Shown here: in pieces, positions 3 to 5,571 of the stretch | Layout: each line of letters opens with the position of its first letter | Position numbering within the stretch: the stretch's first letter is position 1 | Virus record (IMG/VR): IMGVR_UViG_3300037070_003333 | Location: 1-27,116 of that record | From: a virus | Direction: 5' to 3' (one strand) | DNA length: 27,116 nt | Made by a program: the position numbers and the translations under genes | The notes under the pieces: generated by a model | Told to the model about the DNA's origin: nothing | Databases searched by the model: none | The model's input: the letters and a program-made list of their open reading frames with translations, nothing else

Positions 3-413
3 ATGAAACAGAGAGGTCGCAAATCCTCGCAGTCGTTATCGACGCTGGCCGACATTTCCGCGGTGCGGCGCCCGGATCCTCCGGCGACTCTGACGGATGA
101 ACAGGCAGACGAGTGGCGCGGGGTTGTCGATCGTTTGCCGGCGGAATGGTTTGGCCGCGAAACGCATCCGCTGCTCGAGCAATATTGCCGGCATGTGGTG
201 CGAGCTCGGCGCCTGGCTCAATTACTGGATGCGTGCGAGTTGGCGACTGAGTTTGATATCAAAGAATACCGTGAGTTGTTAAGCGACGAAATCAAGCAGT
301 CGACCATCATGCAGGGTCTGGCGACGCGGATGAGGATTTCGCAGGCGTCGAGTTATGACGCCTCGCGGTCGCGGCCGGTGAATGCTGCTAAGCCGTGGGA
401 CATGGCCGCTTAG
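3..413 (+). CDS. terS: Phage terminase small subunit
   Basis: This 136-residue protein is the likely DNA-recognition subunit of the packaging motor, which selects phage DNA and hands it to the large terminase. The basic N-terminus (MKQRGRKSSQSL) is followed by a proline-rich linker and a 'LTDEQADEWRGVVDRLPAEWF' type segment. Next comes a helical region with an 'EQYCRHVVRARR' core, and the C-terminus ends in KPWDMAA. This pattern is typical of P27-like small terminases of alphaproteobacterial phages. The window begins two bases before this ATG, so neither its ribosome binding site nor a possible earlier start can be examined. The large terminase lies 3.6 kb downstream rather than adjacent, because an accessory island has come between them. 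Confidence 0.85.
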   Translation: MKQRGRKSSQSLSTLADISAVRRPDPPATLTDEQADEWRGVVDRLPAEWFGRETHPLLEQYCRHVVRARRLAQLLDACELATEFDIKEYRELLSDEIKQSTIMQGLATRMRISQASSYDASRSRPVNAAKPWDMAA

Positions 414-884
414 GTGGCGGTGGATTGGCATTGGCTGGCGATGGGCGCCGGGTTCGCGGCGGTTACTGGCGGGTTGATTGTGAACGGGGCTTTGACGGTA
501 CGGGTTGTTACGGCCGCGGAGCAATTGGTAGACGCGGTGACGACGGACAATGGTCGGCACGGCGGGTTAATAACCCGGGAAACGATCCGGGCGGCTGACG
601 AGTTAAGGGCTCTGCTGCTGGCCTGGCGGCGGGTGTCGCCTGGCGCTGACGGCGAGGAGCTAAGCAACATGGCACAGGAAACGACTTACACTGTCGCGCG
701 GCGGTTTAAGGACTCGAGCGGCCGGCAGTGGGAAGAGGGCGACGCGTTCGAGGAAGCCGACGAGAAGGCGATTGCGAAGGCGCTTCGCGAGGGCAACATT
801 CGCGAGGGCGACCAGGCGACGCAACAGCCGGCCGGCGGGCAAAAGCCTGGCCAGGGCGGCCAGGGTGGACAGCCGAAAGCTTAG
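414..884 (+). CDS. Hypothetical membrane-anchored protein with a strong internal start
   Basis: A GTG directly abuts the small terminase stop and opens a 156-codon frame. Residues 1 to about 30 form a hydrophobic segment. The middle is a soluble helical stretch, and the C-terminal part (from MAQETTYTVARRF) looks like a small beta-barrel or KOW-like domain ending in a Gly/Gln-rich tail. An ATG at 669 has a clear purine-rich ribosome binding site (GAGGAG, about nine bases upstream). A 71-residue soluble product could therefore be made alone or in addition. Resemblance of the short form to small phage head-region proteins is an impression, not a recognised family. The TAG stop shares bases with the TAA stop of the convergent gene at 881. 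The long-form start is less certain than the frame itself. Confidence 0.55.
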   Translation: MAVDWHWLAMGAGFAAVTGGLIVNGALTVRVVTAAEQLVDAVTTDNGRHGGLITRETIRAADELRALLLAWRRVSPGADGEELSNMAQETTYTVARRFKDSSGRQWEEGDAFEEADEKAIAKALREGNIREGDQATQQPAGGQKPGQGGQGGQPKA

Positions 885-1555
885 CCTTGGGCGAAGAAAG
901 GGTTAGGCCGTTTCGGGTTTTTGACGGATCCGACGTTTAGTAGATCCTCGAATATCGAGGCGGCCTGACTCTTGTTCTTGGCGTCGATCTTCTGCCAAAT
1001 TTCATCGGCGAGGTTTTCGTAGAAGCGGGTGAGCTCGTCATCGGCGGAGAGGTCGAACGACTCGAGCCGATTGTTTTCGTTTAGGTTCATGCTCGAGCGG
1101 ATGGCTATTGCCAGGTCGGCGCCGCGCACGGTGCAGAATTTGGCGTGACTGTTGACGGCGCGGAAGCTCTCCGGGCCAAAGCCTTTCACAAGTACTGATG
1201 CGAGCTCCGGTCGACGCGAGAACATGCTCGGGTCGAGGATGAAGCGCATTCGCTTAATCAGTTTGTCTTGCGTGAAGTCGTAAGCCTTTTGTGCGTCGTA
1301 GACTCCCATTGTCCACGTCGCAACTATAACTTCTGCCGCTCCGGTTTGCGTGAGGCAATGCCGGAGGATGTCGACGAGCGAAAATTGCCCGTTGGTGATT
1401 CCGCATATTTCGTCGCCGTCGCGGATCTGGCCGATTAGTGTTGCCGCATCGGCGAAGCCATCTTTTCGGAACAGGCGTCGTTTACTCCCGACGGCGCGGC
1501 GGAAGATGATGGGCTCGAGGGCATCCGCCGGCAGCTTGTCAAATAGCGTGGTCAT
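881..1555 (-). CDS. Phospholipase D-fold protein with a single degenerate HKD motif
   Basis: This 224-residue protein has one PLD-like active-site segment: His137-x-Lys139 followed by a serine pair (154-155) and Asn157 in 'SSMNLNENNR'. That matches the HxK...GSxNLN layout of PLD enzymes and bacterial Nuc-type nucleases. The usual aspartate five residues after the lysine is an arginine here, so catalysis may be altered. The strand segment 'AEVIVATWTMGVYD' (residues 75-87) fits the N-terminal half of the fold. Single-HKD proteins of this kind normally act as dimers. The ATG overlaps the HTH gene stop by four bases (ATGA), so the two are translationally coupled and probably act together. It is the last gene of the leftward operon. 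It might be a nuclease, phosphodiesterase or exclusion factor, and the substrate cannot be read from sequence. Confidence 0.65.
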   Translation of the reverse strand: MTTLFDKLPADALEPIIFRRAVGSKRRLFRKDGFADAATLIGQIRDGDEICGITNGQFSLVDILRHCLTQTGAAEVIVATWTMGVYDAQKAYDFTQDKLIKRMRFILDPSMFSRRPELASVLVKGFGPESFRAVNSHAKFCTVRGADLAIAIRSSMNLNENNRLESFDLSADDELTRFYENLADEIWQKIDAKNKSQAASIFEDLLNVGSVKNPKRPNPFFAQG

Positions 1556-1788
1556 GTGCGGGGCTTCCTGGCGGTGGGTTTCGGGATCTTGAAACCGAGC
1601 TCGGCGGCGGTTGCCTTGGTGAGCTCATAGGAGAGGGCAGCGCAGGCGAGCGCGATATGCCGGCGGATTGGAACGGCGCCGGCGAGCATGCGGCGTAAGC
1701 GATCCTGGGAGATATCGAGCTCGGCTGCGAATTGCTGCCGGTCCCATTCCATGCGGGCGCGGAATTGCTCGAGGGTCTTAGGGGTCAT
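1552..1788 (-). CDS. Cro/XRE-like helix-turn-helix protein
   Basis: This 78-residue protein carries a helix-turn-helix of the kind seen in small phage regulators. Segment 'RMEWDRQQFAAELDISQDRL' (residues 12-31) aligns with helices 2-3 of Cro/XRE proteins. It is followed by 'RRMLAGAVPIRRHIALACAAL', a pattern familiar in alphaproteobacterial prophage XRE proteins. The C-terminus is short and basic. It lies in the leftward operon controlled by the promoter near 2958-2986, which contains palindromic operators. It is therefore the best local candidate for the protein that binds those operators, although this is inference. Its ATG overlaps the stop of a 19-residue upstream frame, and its stop overlaps the PLD-like start, so all three are coupled. 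The leader keeps the ACTGTGCA-ATG end seen in sister genes but lacks a full AAGGA. Confidence 0.7.
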   Translation of the reverse strand: MTPKTLEQFRARMEWDRQQFAAELDISQDRLRRMLAGAVPIRRHIALACAALSYELTKATAAELGFKIPKPTARKPRT

Positions 1789-1844
1789 TGCACAGTTACT
1801 CCGGGTCGCGTAGGTTTCGCTTTGTTCGGCGGTTTTCTAGCCAT
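1785..1844 (-). CDS. Possible 19-residue micro-gene coupled to the HTH gene
   Basis: The leftward strand has an ATG at 1844 preceded at about five bases by GGAG. It encodes the basic peptide MARKPPNKAKPTRPGVTVQ, and its TGA overlaps the ATG of the HTH gene (ATGA). Good ribosome binding site placement and an exact coupling overlap suggest it is translated, at least as a leader that feeds ribosomes into the HTH gene, which itself has a poor Shine-Dalgarno. Five of 19 residues are Lys or Arg and four are Pro. No family is recognised. It may be only a regulatory leader peptide. Confidence 0.4.
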   Translation of the reverse strand: MARKPPNKAKPTRPGVTVQ

Positions 1845-1857
1845 CGTTCTCCACGGT

Positions 1858-1894
1858 AATGAGCCTCGGCGCCTTGGCGGCGTCGAGGCTCATT
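1858..1894 (-). terminator. 11-bp inverted repeat, possible terminator or attenuator
   Basis: AATGAGCCTCG (1858-1868) and CGAGGCTCATT (1884-1894) are perfectly complementary around a 15-base loop. The element lies just after the stop of the leftward gene at 1899 and before the coupled micro-gene/HTH/PLD set. There is no T-run after it on the leftward strand. It is therefore more likely a pausing, processing or attenuation structure that sets HTH/PLD expression below that of the upstream genes than a full terminator. A 18-codon frame beginning at 1893 runs through it but has no good ribosome binding site. Confidence 0.4.
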
Positions 1895-1898
1895 CTGT

Positions 1899-2141
1899 TC
1901 AGCCGGCTTGATCGGCTGGATCGGGCGGTGATACGCACCAATCAATCGCGCGTTCGAGTTCGCGGGCTGATACGGTGCCATCCTCGCGGCGCACCTTGAC
2001 AACAGAGCAATCTGCCAGCGCGGCGTCGGGTAGGCCGAGCATTAAATACTTACCGGCGCCGGAGATGGTGACATTTACTCCGAGCTCGCTAGCTTGTTTG
2101 ATTGCCTCCTCGAGCGGCAGGCGCGGCTTTTCAATTGGCAT
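1899..2141 (-). CDS. Hypothetical protein, 80 residues
   Basis: The start at 2141 was chosen because AAAGGAAACTGTGCA precedes it directly, matching the leader of neighbouring genes; the frame stays open upstream but has no signal there. The protein is an acidic/basic mixed soluble polypeptide. It contains 'LEEAIKQASELGVNVTISG' (helix followed by strand), a 'VVKVRREDG' strand turn, and a C-terminal 'ELERAIDWCVSPPDPADQ'. No catalytic motif or known family is recognised. It is a middle gene of the leftward operon starting at 2909, upstream of the 11-bp inverted repeat. Small phage proteins of this kind often modulate host functions, but no function is supported here. Confidence 0.6.
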   Translation of the reverse strand: MPIEKPRLPLEEAIKQASELGVNVTISGAGKYLMLGLPDAALADCSVVKVRREDGTVSARELERAIDWCVSPPDPADQAG

Positions 2142-2178
2142 TGCACAGTTTCCTTTCTGCTGGTGGTTGGGGCGGCGG

Positions 2179-2406
2179 TTATTCGTAGATGCACTGATCG
2201 ATCTTTGCATCGAAGATGCTGCGTGACACGGTGTAGCGGCCATCGCGCTCGTCGCGGACGGGCACATTATAGACGGCGGTCATATCGGATTTCTCAATCA
2301 GGATGGCGCGGAGAGTGCCGTGTGTTGTCCTCTCGAAAGCGTAGGTAAGGCCGAGCTTGTTAAGCTGGCGAACGGCGGCGACGGCGCTGATACGTTGGTC
2401 GGTCAT
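2179..2406 (-). CDS. Hypothetical protein, 75 residues
   Basis: The ATG at 2406 lies after AAAAGGAACCTGTG, the leader shared with several genes of the island; a GTG one codon earlier is too close to the Shine-Dalgarno. The predicted protein has an N-terminal helix ('AAVRQLNKLGLTYAFER'). A mixed strand region follows ('TLRAILIEKSDMTAVYNV'), with a polar C-terminus ending DQCIYE. It has no transmembrane segment and no recognised motif. The whole 53-base start region, including an upstream hairpin, is a near-exact copy of that in front of the next gene upstream (2619). Confidence 0.6.
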   Translation of the reverse strand: MTDQRISAVAAVRQLNKLGLTYAFERTTHGTLRAILIEKSDMTAVYNVPVRDERDGRYTVSRSIFDAKIDQCIYE

Positions 2407-2455
2407 CACAGGTTCCTTTTGGTGAGGGGTTGGTCGGGCGCCTGGTGGCGCCCGG
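2403..2455 (-). repeat. Leader/hairpin repeat, copy 1
   Basis: This 53-base segment matches 2616-2668 with a single mismatch. On the leftward strand it contains an 8-bp stem (2435-2442 with 2447-2454, four-base loop), then the ribosome binding site AAAAGGA, the conserved ACCTGTG and the ATG of the gene at 2406. Duplication of leader plus hairpin, but not of the coding sequence behind it, points to recombination between intergenic leaders. It could also reflect selection for the same post-transcriptional control. Confidence 0.8.
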
Positions 2456-2460
2456 TTGGA

Positions 2461-2619
2461 TCAGTCGGCCGACACGACGTCGCCGGTTTCGTAGTAGCGA
2501 TGGAGTCTGCTGCTCATGGCGATGCGCTTTGCCTCTGCCACAGTGTCGGCCTCGACGTATTGCTCACAGACAACCGCGCCGGTGCGGCGGTCGACGATGT
2601 TGACGAAATAGGAGTTCAT
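2461..2619 (-). CDS. Hypothetical protein, 52 residues
   Basis: This small leftward gene fills what would otherwise be a gap. ATG at 2619 follows AAAAGGAACCTGTG and the frame ends TGA at 2461. The product starts MNSYFVNIVDRRTGAVVCEQ, then 'YVEADTVAEAKRIAMSSRL', and ends 'YYETGDVVSAD'. The pattern is a strand-turn-strand followed by one helix, like many small phage proteins with a ferredoxin-like or beta-grasp half. No family is identified. Perfect leader conservation with the neighbouring genes is the main evidence that it is real. Confidence 0.6.
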   Translation of the reverse strand: MNSYFVNIVDRRTGAVVCEQYVEADTVAEAKRIAMSSRLHRYYETGDVVSAD

Positions 2620-2668
2620 CACAGGTTCCTTTTGGTGAGGGGGTGGTCGGGCGCCTGGTGGCGCCCGG
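2616..2668 (-). repeat. Leader/hairpin repeat, copy 2
   Basis: This is the second copy of the 53-base leader cassette, one mismatch from 2403-2455. It contains the 8-bp stem (2648-2655 with 2660-2667), the AAAAGGA site and the ATG of the 52-residue gene at 2619. On the leftward transcript each stem lies about 22 bases before a ribosome binding site. That position suits an RNA-stability or processing element between cistrons. Confidence 0.8.
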
Positions 2669-2672
2669 GGGG

Positions 2673-2909
2673 TTAGGAGAGCTCGATCTCGATTTCGTTG
2701 CGGTTGGCGTAGTCGACGAATTTCGCCAGGCGGCCGGCCTCGATTGCGAGTGTGGTAAAGCCGCTGCCGGTGCGGAGCTCGGTCATCAGGTGGCGATGCT
2801 TCTCGAGGAAACGAAAAGTCGCGTCGTGGCCGCCGGGAATGCCGGTTCCGTAATTGGTTAGCAGATACCAGTCGCAGCTTGCCGTTGCCTTGATCCGTCC
2901 GTGGGCCAT
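2673..2909 (-). CDS. Hypothetical protein, 78 residues, first gene of the leftward operon
   Basis: ATG at 2909 follows a strong AAAGGAG site six bases upstream. The protein begins MAHGRIKATASCDWYLLTNY, has a glycine-rich turn (GTGIPGGHDATF), and then a helix 'FLEKHRHLMTELRTGSGF'. It ends in a strand-helix region 'TTLAIEAGRLAKFVDYANRN'. No known motif is recognised. It is the promoter-proximal gene of the operon, about 40 bases downstream of the predicted transcription start from the operator-containing promoter. It should therefore be the most strongly expressed member when that promoter is open. Confidence 0.6.
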   Translation of the reverse strand: MAHGRIKATASCDWYLLTNYGTGIPGGHDATFRFLEKHRHLMTELRTGSGFTTLAIEAGRLAKFVDYANRNEIEIELS

Positions 2910-2957
2910 TTGGGCTCCTTTGGGCTGGCGGCAGGATTGCCGCTGTTCAATGAAAAT

Positions 2958-2986
2958 ACCCTAATACGCGTTTGCGTATCGGTCAA
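2958..2986 (-). promoter_or_regulatory. Leftward sigma70-type promoter P1
   Basis: On the complementary strand TTGACC (2986-2981) and TAGGGT (2963-2958) are separated by exactly 17 bases. The -35 matches consensus in five of six positions and the -10 in three. The whole spacer is filled by the palindrome ATACGCGTTTGCGTAT, so a protein bound there would block RNA polymerase directly. The first gene starts 49 bases further on. Confidence 0.6.
2964..2979. promoter_or_regulatory. Operator O1
   Basis: ATACGCGTTTGCGTAT has perfect 6-bp inverted arms (ATACGC/GCGTAT) around GTTT. It lies exactly in the -35/-10 spacer of P1. Identical to O2, and near-identical to O3 and O4 read on the other strand. 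Confidence 0.75.
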
Positions 2987-2991
2987 CAGAA

Positions 2992-3007
2992 ATACGCGTT
3001 TGCGTAT
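2992..3007. promoter_or_regulatory. Operator O2
   Basis: Exact second copy of ATACGCGTTTGCGTAT, 28 bases centre-to-centre from O1 and five bases beyond the -35 of P1. It lies upstream of the rightward gene at 3049. The pairing suggests cooperative binding by a dimeric repressor. Confidence 0.75.
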
Positions 3008-3048
3008 CGGCGAGCGGTCACGTCTTTGTGAGCTCGGAGGTTAGGGCA

Positions 3049-3216
3049 ATGACACTTGGTTTAGCATACTGGATCTTGATGCTAATCTGGCTCGTGCTCG
3101 GCTTGTATGTTGGTTACATCGGTGCCAGTCATTACGTGCTAGGTGGCAATATCCTGTTGTTCATCCTGCTGTTGCTTCTCGGCTGGCAAGTGTTTGGCGC
3201 TCCGCTGCGGGGGTGA
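3049..3216 (+). CDS. Small membrane protein with two transmembrane segments
   Basis: The ATG at 3049 was chosen because GGAGG lies eight bases upstream; a GTG at 3028 has no such site. The 55-residue product is almost entirely hydrophobic. It has helix one at about residues 3-25 (LAYWILMLIWLVLGLYVGY), a short 'GASHYVLGG' turn, and helix two at about residues 33-51. It is the only rightward gene inside the leftward island and lies divergent from P1, sharing the O1/O2 region. Two-helix proteins of this size in phages include holin-like, exclusion and lysogenic membrane proteins; nothing here decides between them. It ends about 20 bases from the convergent gene at 3238. Confidence 0.65.
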   Translation: MTLGLAYWILMLIWLVLGLYVGYIGASHYVLGGNILLFILLLLLGWQVFGAPLRG

Positions 3217-3237
3217 CGCGGCGGAGCTCGCCTTCGC

Positions 3238-3474
3238 CTAGGTGAAGAGGGCGTAATAAGTTAGCAGCTTGCGCTTGGCGGTGGCGCGGGGCTCGGCGTC
3301 TTCGATCGCGTCGGCCTCGGTCCAGGCGATGTGAAACATCTCGCGGAGCAAGGCGCTCGAGTCGCCGCGGCCGATGTGCCTGGTGGCGCCTCCGGCCTCG
3401 AGCCGGAAGCCGGCTCCGCCGTTGATTTCGACGAGGCGAAAGCCGCCGTCGTGAAACAGGGTCTTCGTGGTCAC
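3238..3474 (-). CDS. Hypothetical protein, 78 residues
   Basis: GTG at 3474 follows CCAAAGGAACCTGTGCC, the island's conserved leader, so it is preferred although the frame stays open much further upstream. The product starts MTTKTLFHDGGFRLVEINGG, with repeated beta strands ('AGFRLEAGGATRHIG'). A helical C-terminal half follows ('LLREMFHIAWTEADAIEDA...TAKRKLLTYYALF'). No known family is recognised. It is the last gene of the second leftward operon (P2), convergent with the small membrane protein gene. Confidence 0.6.
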   Translation of the reverse strand: MTTKTLFHDGGFRLVEINGGAGFRLEAGGATRHIGRGDSSALLREMFHIAWTEADAIEDAEPRATAKRKLLTYYALFT

Positions 3475-3491
3475 GGCACAGGTTCCTTTGG

Positions 3492-3662
3492 TTAAGAGAG
3501 CTCGAGCTCGCGCATGGCGGCCTCGGCCTCGGCGCGGGTGGAGTAAGCGCGGTCCAAGCCTGACCGCCATAGTTTCAGGCTGGCGTCGGCTATTTGCTGG
3601 CCGGTGCCGTGCGGGGCGACGATGTGCCAAAGGTAGTCGGTCGTCTGGATTACTCGATACAT
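3492..3662 (-). CDS. Hypothetical protein, 56 residues
   Basis: ATG at 3662 is preceded by GAGGAAAACCTGTG, a variant of the shared leader. The 56-residue product begins MYRVIQTTDYLWHIVAPHG, continues with a helix 'GQQIADASLKLWRSGL', and ends in an acidic helix 'STRAEAEAAMRELELS'. This strand-helix arrangement recalls small phage proteins of unknown role; no motif is recognised. It is the middle gene of the P2 leftward operon, with 17 bases to the next gene. Confidence 0.6.
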   Translation of the reverse strand: MYRVIQTTDYLWHIVAPHGTGQQIADASLKLWRSGLDRAYSTRAEAEAAMRELELS

Positions 3663-3680
3663 CACAGGTTTTCCTCGGTG

Positions 3681-3962
3681 TTAGATTTCGCGGGGCAGTC
3701 CGTGGGACTGGCGGAGGGCGCGCATGCGCGGCTCGGCAAGCTGGCGGGCCAGGTGGTCGCGGCGGGCTTGGATGGTGGCAGAGGCGGCGGCGATTGCCTC
3801 GGCGCGGGTGACAAACGCCAGGGCGAGTAACTGCTCGGTGTGGCGCCCGTGGTCGACGATCGGCACATAGGGCCAGGCGGGGTTGCGGCCGCGCTTGACG
3901 GCGGTCGGCTTGCCGAAGTCGGCGGCGGCGACGATGGCGGCGATTTGCTCGGTGAGGGTCAT
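3681..3962 (-). CDS. Hypothetical protein, 93 residues, first gene of the P2 operon
   Basis: ATG at 3962 has GGAG eight bases upstream and lies about 20 bases from the predicted P2 transcription start. The product begins with a helix (MTLTEQIAAIVAAADFG), has a basic loop 'KPTAVKRGRNPAWPYVPIV', then 'HTEQLLALAFVTRAEAIAAA'. It ends in a basic helix 'TIQARRDHLARQLAEPRMR'. The overall basic charge would allow nucleic-acid binding, but there is no recognised domain. Confidence 0.6.
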   Translation of the reverse strand: MTLTEQIAAIVAAADFGKPTAVKRGRNPAWPYVPIVDHGRHTEQLLALAFVTRAEAIAAASATIQARRDHLARQLAEPRMRALRQSHGLPREI

Positions 3963-3988
3963 CGATCGGACTCCAGGTCAACGAAACG

Positions 3989-4017
3989 ACGATACGCAAA
4001 CACGCATCGGAAGTCAA
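3989..4017 (-). promoter_or_regulatory. Leftward sigma70-type promoter P2
   Basis: On the complementary strand TTGACT (4017-4012) and TATCGT (3994-3989) are 17 bases apart; -35 matches consensus in five of six positions and -10 in four. Operator O3 overlaps the -10 and most of the spacer, and O4 lies just beyond the -35. This is the same architecture as P1. Confidence 0.65.
3992..4007. promoter_or_regulatory. Operator O3
   Basis: ATACGCAAACACGCAT is the reverse-orientation operator with two mismatches, so it is probably the weakest of the four. It covers the end of the P2 -10 and most of its spacer. Confidence 0.65.
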
Positions 4018-4023
4018 TCGCAA

Positions 4024-4039
4024 ATGCGCAAACGCGTAT
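4024..4039. promoter_or_regulatory. Operator O4, overlapping the large terminase start
   Basis: ATGCGCAAACGCGTAT matches the operator with one mismatch and lies 32 bases centre-to-centre from O3. Its first three bases are the proposed ATG of the large terminase gene, so binding here could also affect late gene transcription passing through. Confidence 0.65.
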
Positions 4040-5571
4040 CGAAAAACGGAGAGAAATCACGCGCCGATCTGGTGATTGAGTTCATCGAAGGGCATATGAA
4101 AATTCCGGAAGGCCGCGACGTCGGCAAGCCGGTTGTGCTGCGCGAATGGCAAAAGGAAAACATCCGGCGGATTTATAACAACCCGCACGGGACGCGGCGC
4201 GCGATAGTCTCTTTTGGAAGGAAAAACGCTAAGACGACGTTGGCGGCGTTCCTTCTCTTGGTGCATCTCTGCGGGCCGGAGCGGAAGCTTAATTCGCAAT
4301 TGAACTCGGCGGCTCAGTCGCGCGACCAGGCGGCGATTTTGTTTGCGCTCGCGGCGAAGATTGTTCGCCTGTCGCCGACATTGAACAGCGTCATTACGAT
4401 CCGCGACACGGTGAAGGAAATCTTCTGTCCGGAGCTCGGCACTCTCTACAAGGCATTGTCGGCGGAAGCGTCGACGGCGTTCGGTCTGTCGCCGGTGTTT
4501 ATTGTTCACGACGAGCTCGGCCAGGTGCAGGGGCCGCGCTCGGCGCTGTATGAAGCATTAGAGACGGCGGTCGGCGCGCACGAGGCGCCGCTGTCCCTGG
4601 TCATCAGTACTCAGGCGCCGACGGATAACGATCTGTTGTCGATCCTTATCGATGACGCGCGGGCGAATAACGATCCGCGGGTGATCTTGTCGCTGTATAG
4701 CGCCGGTGACGAGCTCGACGCGTTTTCGGAAGAGGCAATCCGGGCGGCGAATCCCGCCTATGGCGATTTTCTGAATGCCCGGGAAGTGCTGGCGATGGCG
4801 GCGGACGCTAAGCGCATGCCATCGCGGGAAAGCGAATATCGCAATCTCGTACTCAATCAGCGGGTCGAGGTAGCGTCGCCGTTCATCAGCCGCTCGGCCT
4901 GGAACGATTGCCGCGGCGAGGTGCTCGATAGCTTCGCTGGCCTGCCGGTGTATGGCGGCCTTGATCTGTCGGCAACGGCGGATCTGACGGCGCTTGTATT
5001 GATTGCGCCGCAGGATGGTAAGTTTCACGTGAAACCTACTTTCTGGTTGCCGGGCGAGGGATTGCGGGAAAAGGCGCAAGCCGATCGGGTGCCTTACGAT
5101 GTGTGGCATCGTGACGGGCTGCTCGAGACGACGCCAGGTCGTGCGGTCGAATATGAGTACGTCGCCAACTATCTCCGCGGTCTGTTCGAGCGACTCGACA
5201 TTCGCGAGATTGGGTTTGACGCCTGGGGCTGGGTTCACTTCAAGCCGTGGCTATTGAAGGCGGGCTTTACTGAAGAGGAACTCGAAACCAAGTTCCGCCA
5301 GGTGCGGCAGAATTTTAAGGAAATGTCGCCGGCGCTCCTAAGCCTCGAGGCGGCGTTGTTGCAATACCGGATCATTCACGACGGGCATCCGGTGTTGAGT
5401 ATGTGCGCGGCGAATGCGGTTGTCGTCTCGGACAGTCAGAATAATCGCATGCTGACCAAGGCGAAGAGTCACGGCCGCATCGATGGCCTGGTTGCCTTGG
5501 CAATGGCGAAGCTGGTCGCCGGCACGCATGAAGAGGCGCCGGTACTCGATATCATGGCGATGGTCGCCTAA
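4024..5571 (+). CDS. terL: Phage terminase large subunit (packaging ATPase/nuclease)
   Basis: The 515-residue product has both terminase domains. The ATPase domain shows a Walker A-like SFGRKNAKTTLAA (residues 63-75) and a Walker B region ending VFIVHDELG, with the acidic pair at about 163-164. The nuclease domain shows GGLDLSATADLTA (Asp314 and Asp320), FDAW (about 398-401), and KSHGRIDGLVAL with Asp487, the expected RNase H-like metal ligands. It powers DNA translocation into the prohead and makes the cuts. ATG at 4024 was chosen because it gives the basic N-terminus usual for this group and GGAAG lies ten bases before it; ATG 4096 is an alternative. The 5' codons double as operator O4. Confidence 0.93.
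   Translation: MRKRVSKNGEKSRADLVIEFIEGHMKIPEGRDVGKPVVLREWQKENIRRIYNNPHGTRRAIVSFGRKNAKTTLAAFLLLVHLCGPERKLNSQLNSAAQSRDQAAILFALAAKIVRLSPTLNSVITIRDTVKEIFCPELGTLYKALSAEASTAFGLSPVFIVHDELGQVQGPRSALYEALETAVGAHEAPLSLVISTQAPTDNDLLSILIDDARANNDPRVILSLYSAGDELDAFSEEAIRAANPAYGDFLNAREVLAMAADAKRMPSRESEYRNLVLNQRVEVASPFISRSAWNDCRGEVLDSFAGLPVYGGLDLSATADLTALVLIAPQDGKFHVKPTFWLPGEGLREKAQADRVPYDVWHRDGLLETTPGRAVEYEYVANYLRGLFERLDIREIGFDAWGWVHFKPWLLKAGFTEEELETKFRQVRQNFKEMSPALLSLEAALLQYRIIHDGHPVLSMCAANAVVVSDSQNNRMLTKAKSHGRIDGLVALAMAKLVAGTHEEAPVLDIMAMVA

Follow-up and report, generated by a model that had tools for sequence, protein, structure and literature searches.

In the acr-aca operons acrIF1-aca1 of JBD30, acrIF8-aca2 of ZF40 and acrIC7-acrIC6-aca10, a small HTH gene comes after the small ORFs. 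One inverted repeat lies within the core promoter of an Aca-controlled operon, frequently joined by another; the Aca proteins act as repressors, and strong acr transcription damages later phage gene expression (PMC9410906). The small proteins are made early, from strong promoters, until the HTH protein has built up, covers the repeats in the core promoter and turns the operon off (PMC9410906, PMC9410881). The minimal site of Aca10, ATACGCTCATTGAGCGTAT, has the outer half-site ATACGC/GCGTAT and a 7-bp centre (PMC9410881).

The window, by which we mean the whole 27,116-nt virus record that was analysed, belongs to an HK97-type tailed phage and holds an accessory island that resembles these operons. 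As in acr-aca operons, a small HTH gene is co-directional with small ORFs (2909 to 1552), a pairing that also occurs in the related loci L221 and L245, and an inverted repeat lies inside a core promoter with a second one beside it. The island differs from acr-aca operons in that it encodes no known Acr, has two promoters and four sites, and carries a nuclease gene after the HTH gene, whose product is not specifically similar to the known Aca proteins. The arms of the Aca10 site equal those found here, whereas its centre is 7 bp long instead of 4 bp; this likeness is a resemblance and not an identity, and we do not claim the candidate HTH protein as a member of an Aca family.

Two other well-described types of regulation bear comparison. 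HigA/HipB-type antitoxins, which share the XRE fold with the island HTH protein, autorepress at palindromes. The model of the island protein (pLDDT about 87-91 across residues 1-50) has HigA2 and NE0471 among its best fold matches, together with 434 Cro and Aca2, all with non-significant E-values. Unlike such antitoxins, however, the island HTH comes after several small ORFs of no known family, and it matched none of the antitoxin models at the cut-off. A type II toxin-antitoxin system (HigBA-like) was considered and rejected, as no toxin family occurs among the HTH neighbours and the next gene encodes a NucT-like nuclease. The CI-Cro operators of lambda and 434, like the sites described below, are paired palindromes overlapping a promoter, but the window sites belong to leftward accessory promoters within the packaging region and not to an immunity region.

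A leftward island between the terminase genes

The closest terminases come from alphaproteobacterial phages and prophages, the majority of them of Hyphomicrobiales, and we take this HK97-like phage to be one of soil-type Alphaproteobacteria. A single query returned just one distant terminase relative, a limit that an alignment query overcame; the best match, L076, shows 76% identity. Among the relatives of the terminase are temperate phages, for example 16-3 and PAJU2. To the right of terL, late genes continue up to the right end of the window, and some of these match genes for head proteins in related phages; the early region, where the main repressor of the phage would be encoded, is missing from the contig. 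Many of the related contigs L076-L155 start about 40-60 bp upstream of terS, at what resembles a cos end, and the first base of the window lies 2 bases ahead of terS.

The island (881-3962) is antiparallel to terS and terL, which it separates by 3.6 kb (Table 1). Since about 130 relatives have terS next to terL, or with no more than a short insert in between, we regard the 3.6-kb island as an insertion. Three small leftward ORFs lie behind the predicted promoter P3; behind P1 there are four small ORFs, the HTH gene and an inverted NucT-like gene. A NucT-like gene whose product is 57-63% identical occupies the same terS/terL slot in L018-L022, where it is rightward and alone, whereas it is leftward and behind an accessory operon in the window.

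Table 1. Coordinates of the genes, predicted promoters and palindromic sites in the window (ORF, open reading frame; strand as in the record).
Feature	Position	Strand	Remarks
terS (small terminase)	3..413	+	phrog_12559, 5.9e-30; left neighbour of the insertion
NucT-like endonuclease	881..1555	-	phrog_16945; last leftward gene
HTH (XRE-type) protein, 78 aa	1552..1788	-	penultimate leftward gene; proposed Aca-like autorepressor for O1-O4
Small ORF, 80 aa	1899..2141	-	P1 operon
Small ORF, ~76 aa	2179..2409	-	P1 operon
Small ORF, ~53 aa	2461..2622	-	P1 operon
Small ORF, 78 aa	2673..2909	-	first behind P1; L221/L222 relative; predicted alpha/beta fold, pLDDT 90
P1 (predicted promoter)	2958..2986	-	TTGACC (2986-2981), 17-bp spacer, TAGGGT (2963-2958); consensus match 8/12
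O1	2964..2979	.	ATACGCGTTTGCGTAT, exact; O1 plus one G make up the entire 17-bp spacer of P1
O2	2992..3007	.	identical to O1, 28 bp off; 5 bp ahead of the -35 of P1
Small ORF, hydrophobic	3028..3216	+	between the two leftward series
Small ORF, ~79 aa	3238..3477	-	behind P3; no family
Small ORF, 57 aa	3492..3665	-	behind P3; no family
Small ORF, 93 aa	3681..3962	-	first behind P3; no confident relative
P3 (predicted promoter)	3989..4017	-	TTGACT (4017-4012), 17-bp spacer, TATCGT (3994-3989)
O3	3992..4007	.	minus strand ATGCGTGTTTGCGTAT, 2 mismatches; over P3 spacer and -10
O4	4024..4039	.	minus strand ATACGCGTTTGCGCAT, 1 mismatch; 6 bp ahead of the -35 of P3; terL codons 1-6
terL (large terminase)	4024..5571	+	right neighbour of the insertion; start codon within O4

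No confident match to the small ORFs was found in Pfam, PHROGs, NCBIfam or PADLOC. Searches with the island ORFs in phages, viral contigs, plasmids and 298 genomes returned nothing except a relative of ORF 2673-2909 in L221, which came to light through the HTH search. A fold search with ORF 2673-2909 gave nothing significant, and its weak likeness to MutS-domain-I-like folds was set aside.

Two small leftward genes are each preceded by a copy of a 53-bp repeat (2403-2455 and 2616-2668, 98% identical), which consists of the hairpin CGGGCGCC-ACCA-GGCGCCCG and the ribosome site AAAGGAACCTGTGATG, with a partial copy at 3477. We take it to be reminiscent of the start-associated repeats of some mycobacteriophages. 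Used as bait, this leader repeat matched 19 stretches, about the chance number, and brought no island relatives. A strong inverted repeat (1858-1894), with 16-bp arms that are 94% complementary, separates the HTH gene from the last of the small ORFs and might attenuate HTH expression.

Paired palindromes in and beside two predicted promoters

The window contains four copies of ATACGCGTTTGCGTAT, at 2964-3007 and 3992-4039, with 0, 0, 2 and 1 mismatches, and no further copy with up to three mismatches in its 27,116 bases. Shuffled sequences gave a mean of 0.20 matches and reached four in 0/100 shuffles, so that the four palindromes described in the earlier note are indeed present, and far above chance. 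A perfect 6-4-6 palindrome is nothing rare in itself (the window has 14, versus 8.5 in shuffles); what is unusual is the repetition of the same palindrome in pairs. The centre-to-centre spacing is 28 bp for O1/O2 and 32 bp for O3/O4. When the four sites are put in a common orientation, the GTTT centre is constant (ATnCGnGTTTGCGnAT) and the arms are variable, as expected for a protein site and not for a hairpin.

It is worth noting how these sites are set relative to the promoter-like boxes. First, the minus-strand order at P1 is O2, TTCTG, TTGACC, a G plus O1, and TAGGGT; at P3 it is O4, 6 nt, TTGACT, 17 nt and TATCGT, with O3 overlapping the final 13 spacer bases and the TAT of the -10. The earlier claim that O1 and O3 occupy the spacers (O3 reaching the -10) and that O2 and O4 precede the -35 boxes was thus confirmed base by base. 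Second, the -10 of P1 lies about 49 bp ahead of ORF 2673-2909, the first gene of its operon, and the -10 of P3 about 27 bp ahead of ORF 3681-3962, the first gene of the other one. Third, the hexamers of P1 and P3 are only moderate matches to the consensus, and a plain promoter scan found 1 site versus 1.4 expected; the predicted promoters are credible mainly because their boxes coincide with the palindromic sites.

The start of O4 is exactly the ATG of terL (4024), and terminase conservation begins about 11 codons past the terL start. The overlap between O4 and terL is therefore real, but O4 covers only variable leader codons before the conserved terminase region, and the regulatory link between accessory and late genes that had been read into this overlap is unsupported.

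The island HTH protein and the loci of its relatives

The island HTH protein matches HTH_31 of Pfam at 7.6e-6, slightly below the cut-off. As a single sequence it gave zero matches in the PDB and nothing among 289 genomes and the INPHARED phages; searched as a profile, it matched Aca1 (E 0.014) and Aca2 (0.73) in the PDB, no better than many other XRE proteins. Ten viral relatives were found (L215-L224, 31-45% identity), several of which adjoin terminase genes and are antiparallel to them. A chromosomal HTH family related to the island protein (KRWRKSLGLSQKEAAEALGLKRRVVQYYEKGERDG; L246, L249-L273) occurs in many alphaproteobacterial genomes.

L221/L222 represent an otherwise unrelated phage. 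Here an HTH relative comes directly after a relative of ORF 2673-2909 (33% identity over 64 aa, 3e-8; motif GGHxxTxxFLE...KFxxY), and the two form a two-gene operon. The predicted promoter, TTGACG-17-CATATT, carries the 16-bp palindrome TGCTCACTTTTGAGCA in its spacer and a second copy, 13/16 identical, 24 bp upstream, before the -35. Similarly, L223 has a TTGACA-17-TATATT promoter with the 13-bp palindrome GGTACAAGGTACC in the spacer, and L245 a TTGCAA-17-TATATT promoter with the 13-bp palindrome GCTACTCAGTAGC; in both cases the partner lies 32 bp upstream, which is the O3/O4 spacing. The L245 promoter stands ahead of a single small ORF, the end of which runs into the start of the HTH gene. 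In the phage L279, whose HTH protein is 59% identical to that of L245, CATACTGAGTATG was spotted by eye at the matching place, next to a weak -35 with which the locus does not pass our promoter criterion.

This layout, defined after L221 had been seen as a palindrome in a promoter spacer plus a partner of at least 65% identity, has a background of 23 per 4.8 million strand-bases, i.e. about 0.05 expected in the 12 searched regions, where three were found. When the same definition was carried over without change to about 58 more members of the family, most of them single genes in chromosomes, it yielded no new palindrome-plus-partner case; spacer palindromes alone numbered 6-7 in these members versus about 1.4 expected. 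Together, these counts support an association between HTH relatives and palindromes in predicted promoter spacers. Site and HTH protein are linked by layout only, as the HTH relatives share no more than 31-45% identity and the palindromes differ in sequence, in length (13 or 16 bp) and in spacing (24 or 32 bp).

Candidate regulators of the sites and proposed working of the cassette

From the sequence and from the layout at the three HTH-relative loci, the earlier proposal of paired putative operators at two leftward promoters framing the island gains support; the cooperativity that was part of it gains none. We consider it fairly probable that the island is an autoregulated accessory ('moron') cassette of acr-aca-like design, in which the HTH protein 1552-1788 likely represses both promoters. 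Against this reading stand the divergence of the HTH relatives and of their palindromes, the unspecific match to known Aca proteins, the small ORFs that match no known family, and the 110 bp and the hairpin (1858-1894) that lie between the HTH gene and the gene upstream of it.

The sites could instead be the operators of the phage's own CI/Cro-type immunity or lytic regulator, whose gene would lie in the part of the genome that the contig lacks and which would silence the island in lysogens. Paired palindromes overlapping promoters are typical of lambdoid operators, the terminase relatives include temperate phages, and the island HTH is a candidate binder only. We nevertheless hold this to be rather unlikely, on the following lines of evidence. 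First, within the window the sites are confined to the island. Second, a site with at most one mismatch occurs in 0/14 related phage records, which also lends no support to phage repressors in general, named in the earlier note as possible binders. Third, a tandem pair with exact arms occurs in 0/16 bacterial genomes carrying related terminases. Fourth, the layout is seen again beside relatives of the island HTH. The description of the sites as phage operators is supported in part; the cognate protein is more likely the island HTH than the main phage repressor.

The many scattered host-genome copies that would have told against operators were not found for the tandem pair: besides the related-prophage genomes just mentioned, only one of 385 alphaproteobacterial genomes has the tandem pair, in a different arrangement, and these two counts rule out O1/O2 as a host repeat. 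A search of viral contigs with the exact 16-mer gave 8 single matches, about the chance level, and no relatives were gained. A relaxed pair pattern derived from the window matched 58 viral stretches versus about 2 expected (a rough estimate), with 44 of the pairs spaced 27 bp apart and 4 of them 28 bp, which raises the possibility that O1/O2 belong to a widespread class of 27-bp twins, ATACGC-N4-GCGTAT, in unrelated viruses. We judge such membership to be very unlikely. The class has freely varying 4-bp centres (35 kinds among 60), no -35 box between the palindromes, and pairs that often lie just past co-directional gene stops, whereas the window has a constant GTTT centre, variable arms, promoters, and spacings of 28 and 32 bp. 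The relaxed pattern was thus abandoned as a route to relatives of the window, its 58 stretches being a different-looking class.

These twins (L156-L213), of the form [AT]TACGC-N4-GCGTA[AT] and spaced exactly 27 bp, come from very diverse viruses (e.g. L160:11170-11210, L166:10124-10164 and L197:1725-1765); the 44 pairs comprise 30 distinct sequences with 35 kinds of N4 centre, and the 12 loci compared with Rfam gave no match.

That the pairs 2964-3007 and 3992-4039, inverted relative to each other by their GTTT centres, are recombination sites flanking an invertible 1-kb segment is highly improbable, as none of the genes searched was recognised as encoding a recombinase, every site is itself palindromic and in or beside a promoter, the pairs differ in spacing (28 versus 32) and sequence, and inversion would swap the promoters uselessly.

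Returning to the autoregulated cassette, we infer its binding, autorepression and timing as follows. Upon entry of the phage DNA, P3 and P1 would fire leftward, and small, fast-evolving proteins, to which we ascribe a putative anti-defence role, would be made. The HTH protein would then build up, and its dimers would occupy O1/O2 and O3/O4. Because O1 and O3 sit inside the core promoters, RNA polymerase would be excluded, and O2 and O4 would contribute affinity or cooperativity. Such a shut-off would cap the accessory protein levels and would spare the late transcription, which must run rightward from terS across the island to terL, a collision with leftward transcription. The need for a shut-off at this place would come from the island running against the late transcription heading to terL.

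More tentatively, the HTH protein may be the first member of a new Aca family, with one repressor acting on two promoters through four sites, and the seven leftward ORFs, ORF 2673-2909 above all, may encode new anti-defence proteins. Concrete anti-defence candidates are ORF 2673-2909 and the ORF related to it in L221, both of them associated with an HTH gene. If the HTH protein is the repressor, the HTH gene together with the palindrome-in-spacer signature would serve as a bait for anti-defence genes in alphaproteobacterial phages. The island, if it works as proposed, would clearly exemplify an accessory operon that opposes the packaging genes and silences itself so that these get expressed.
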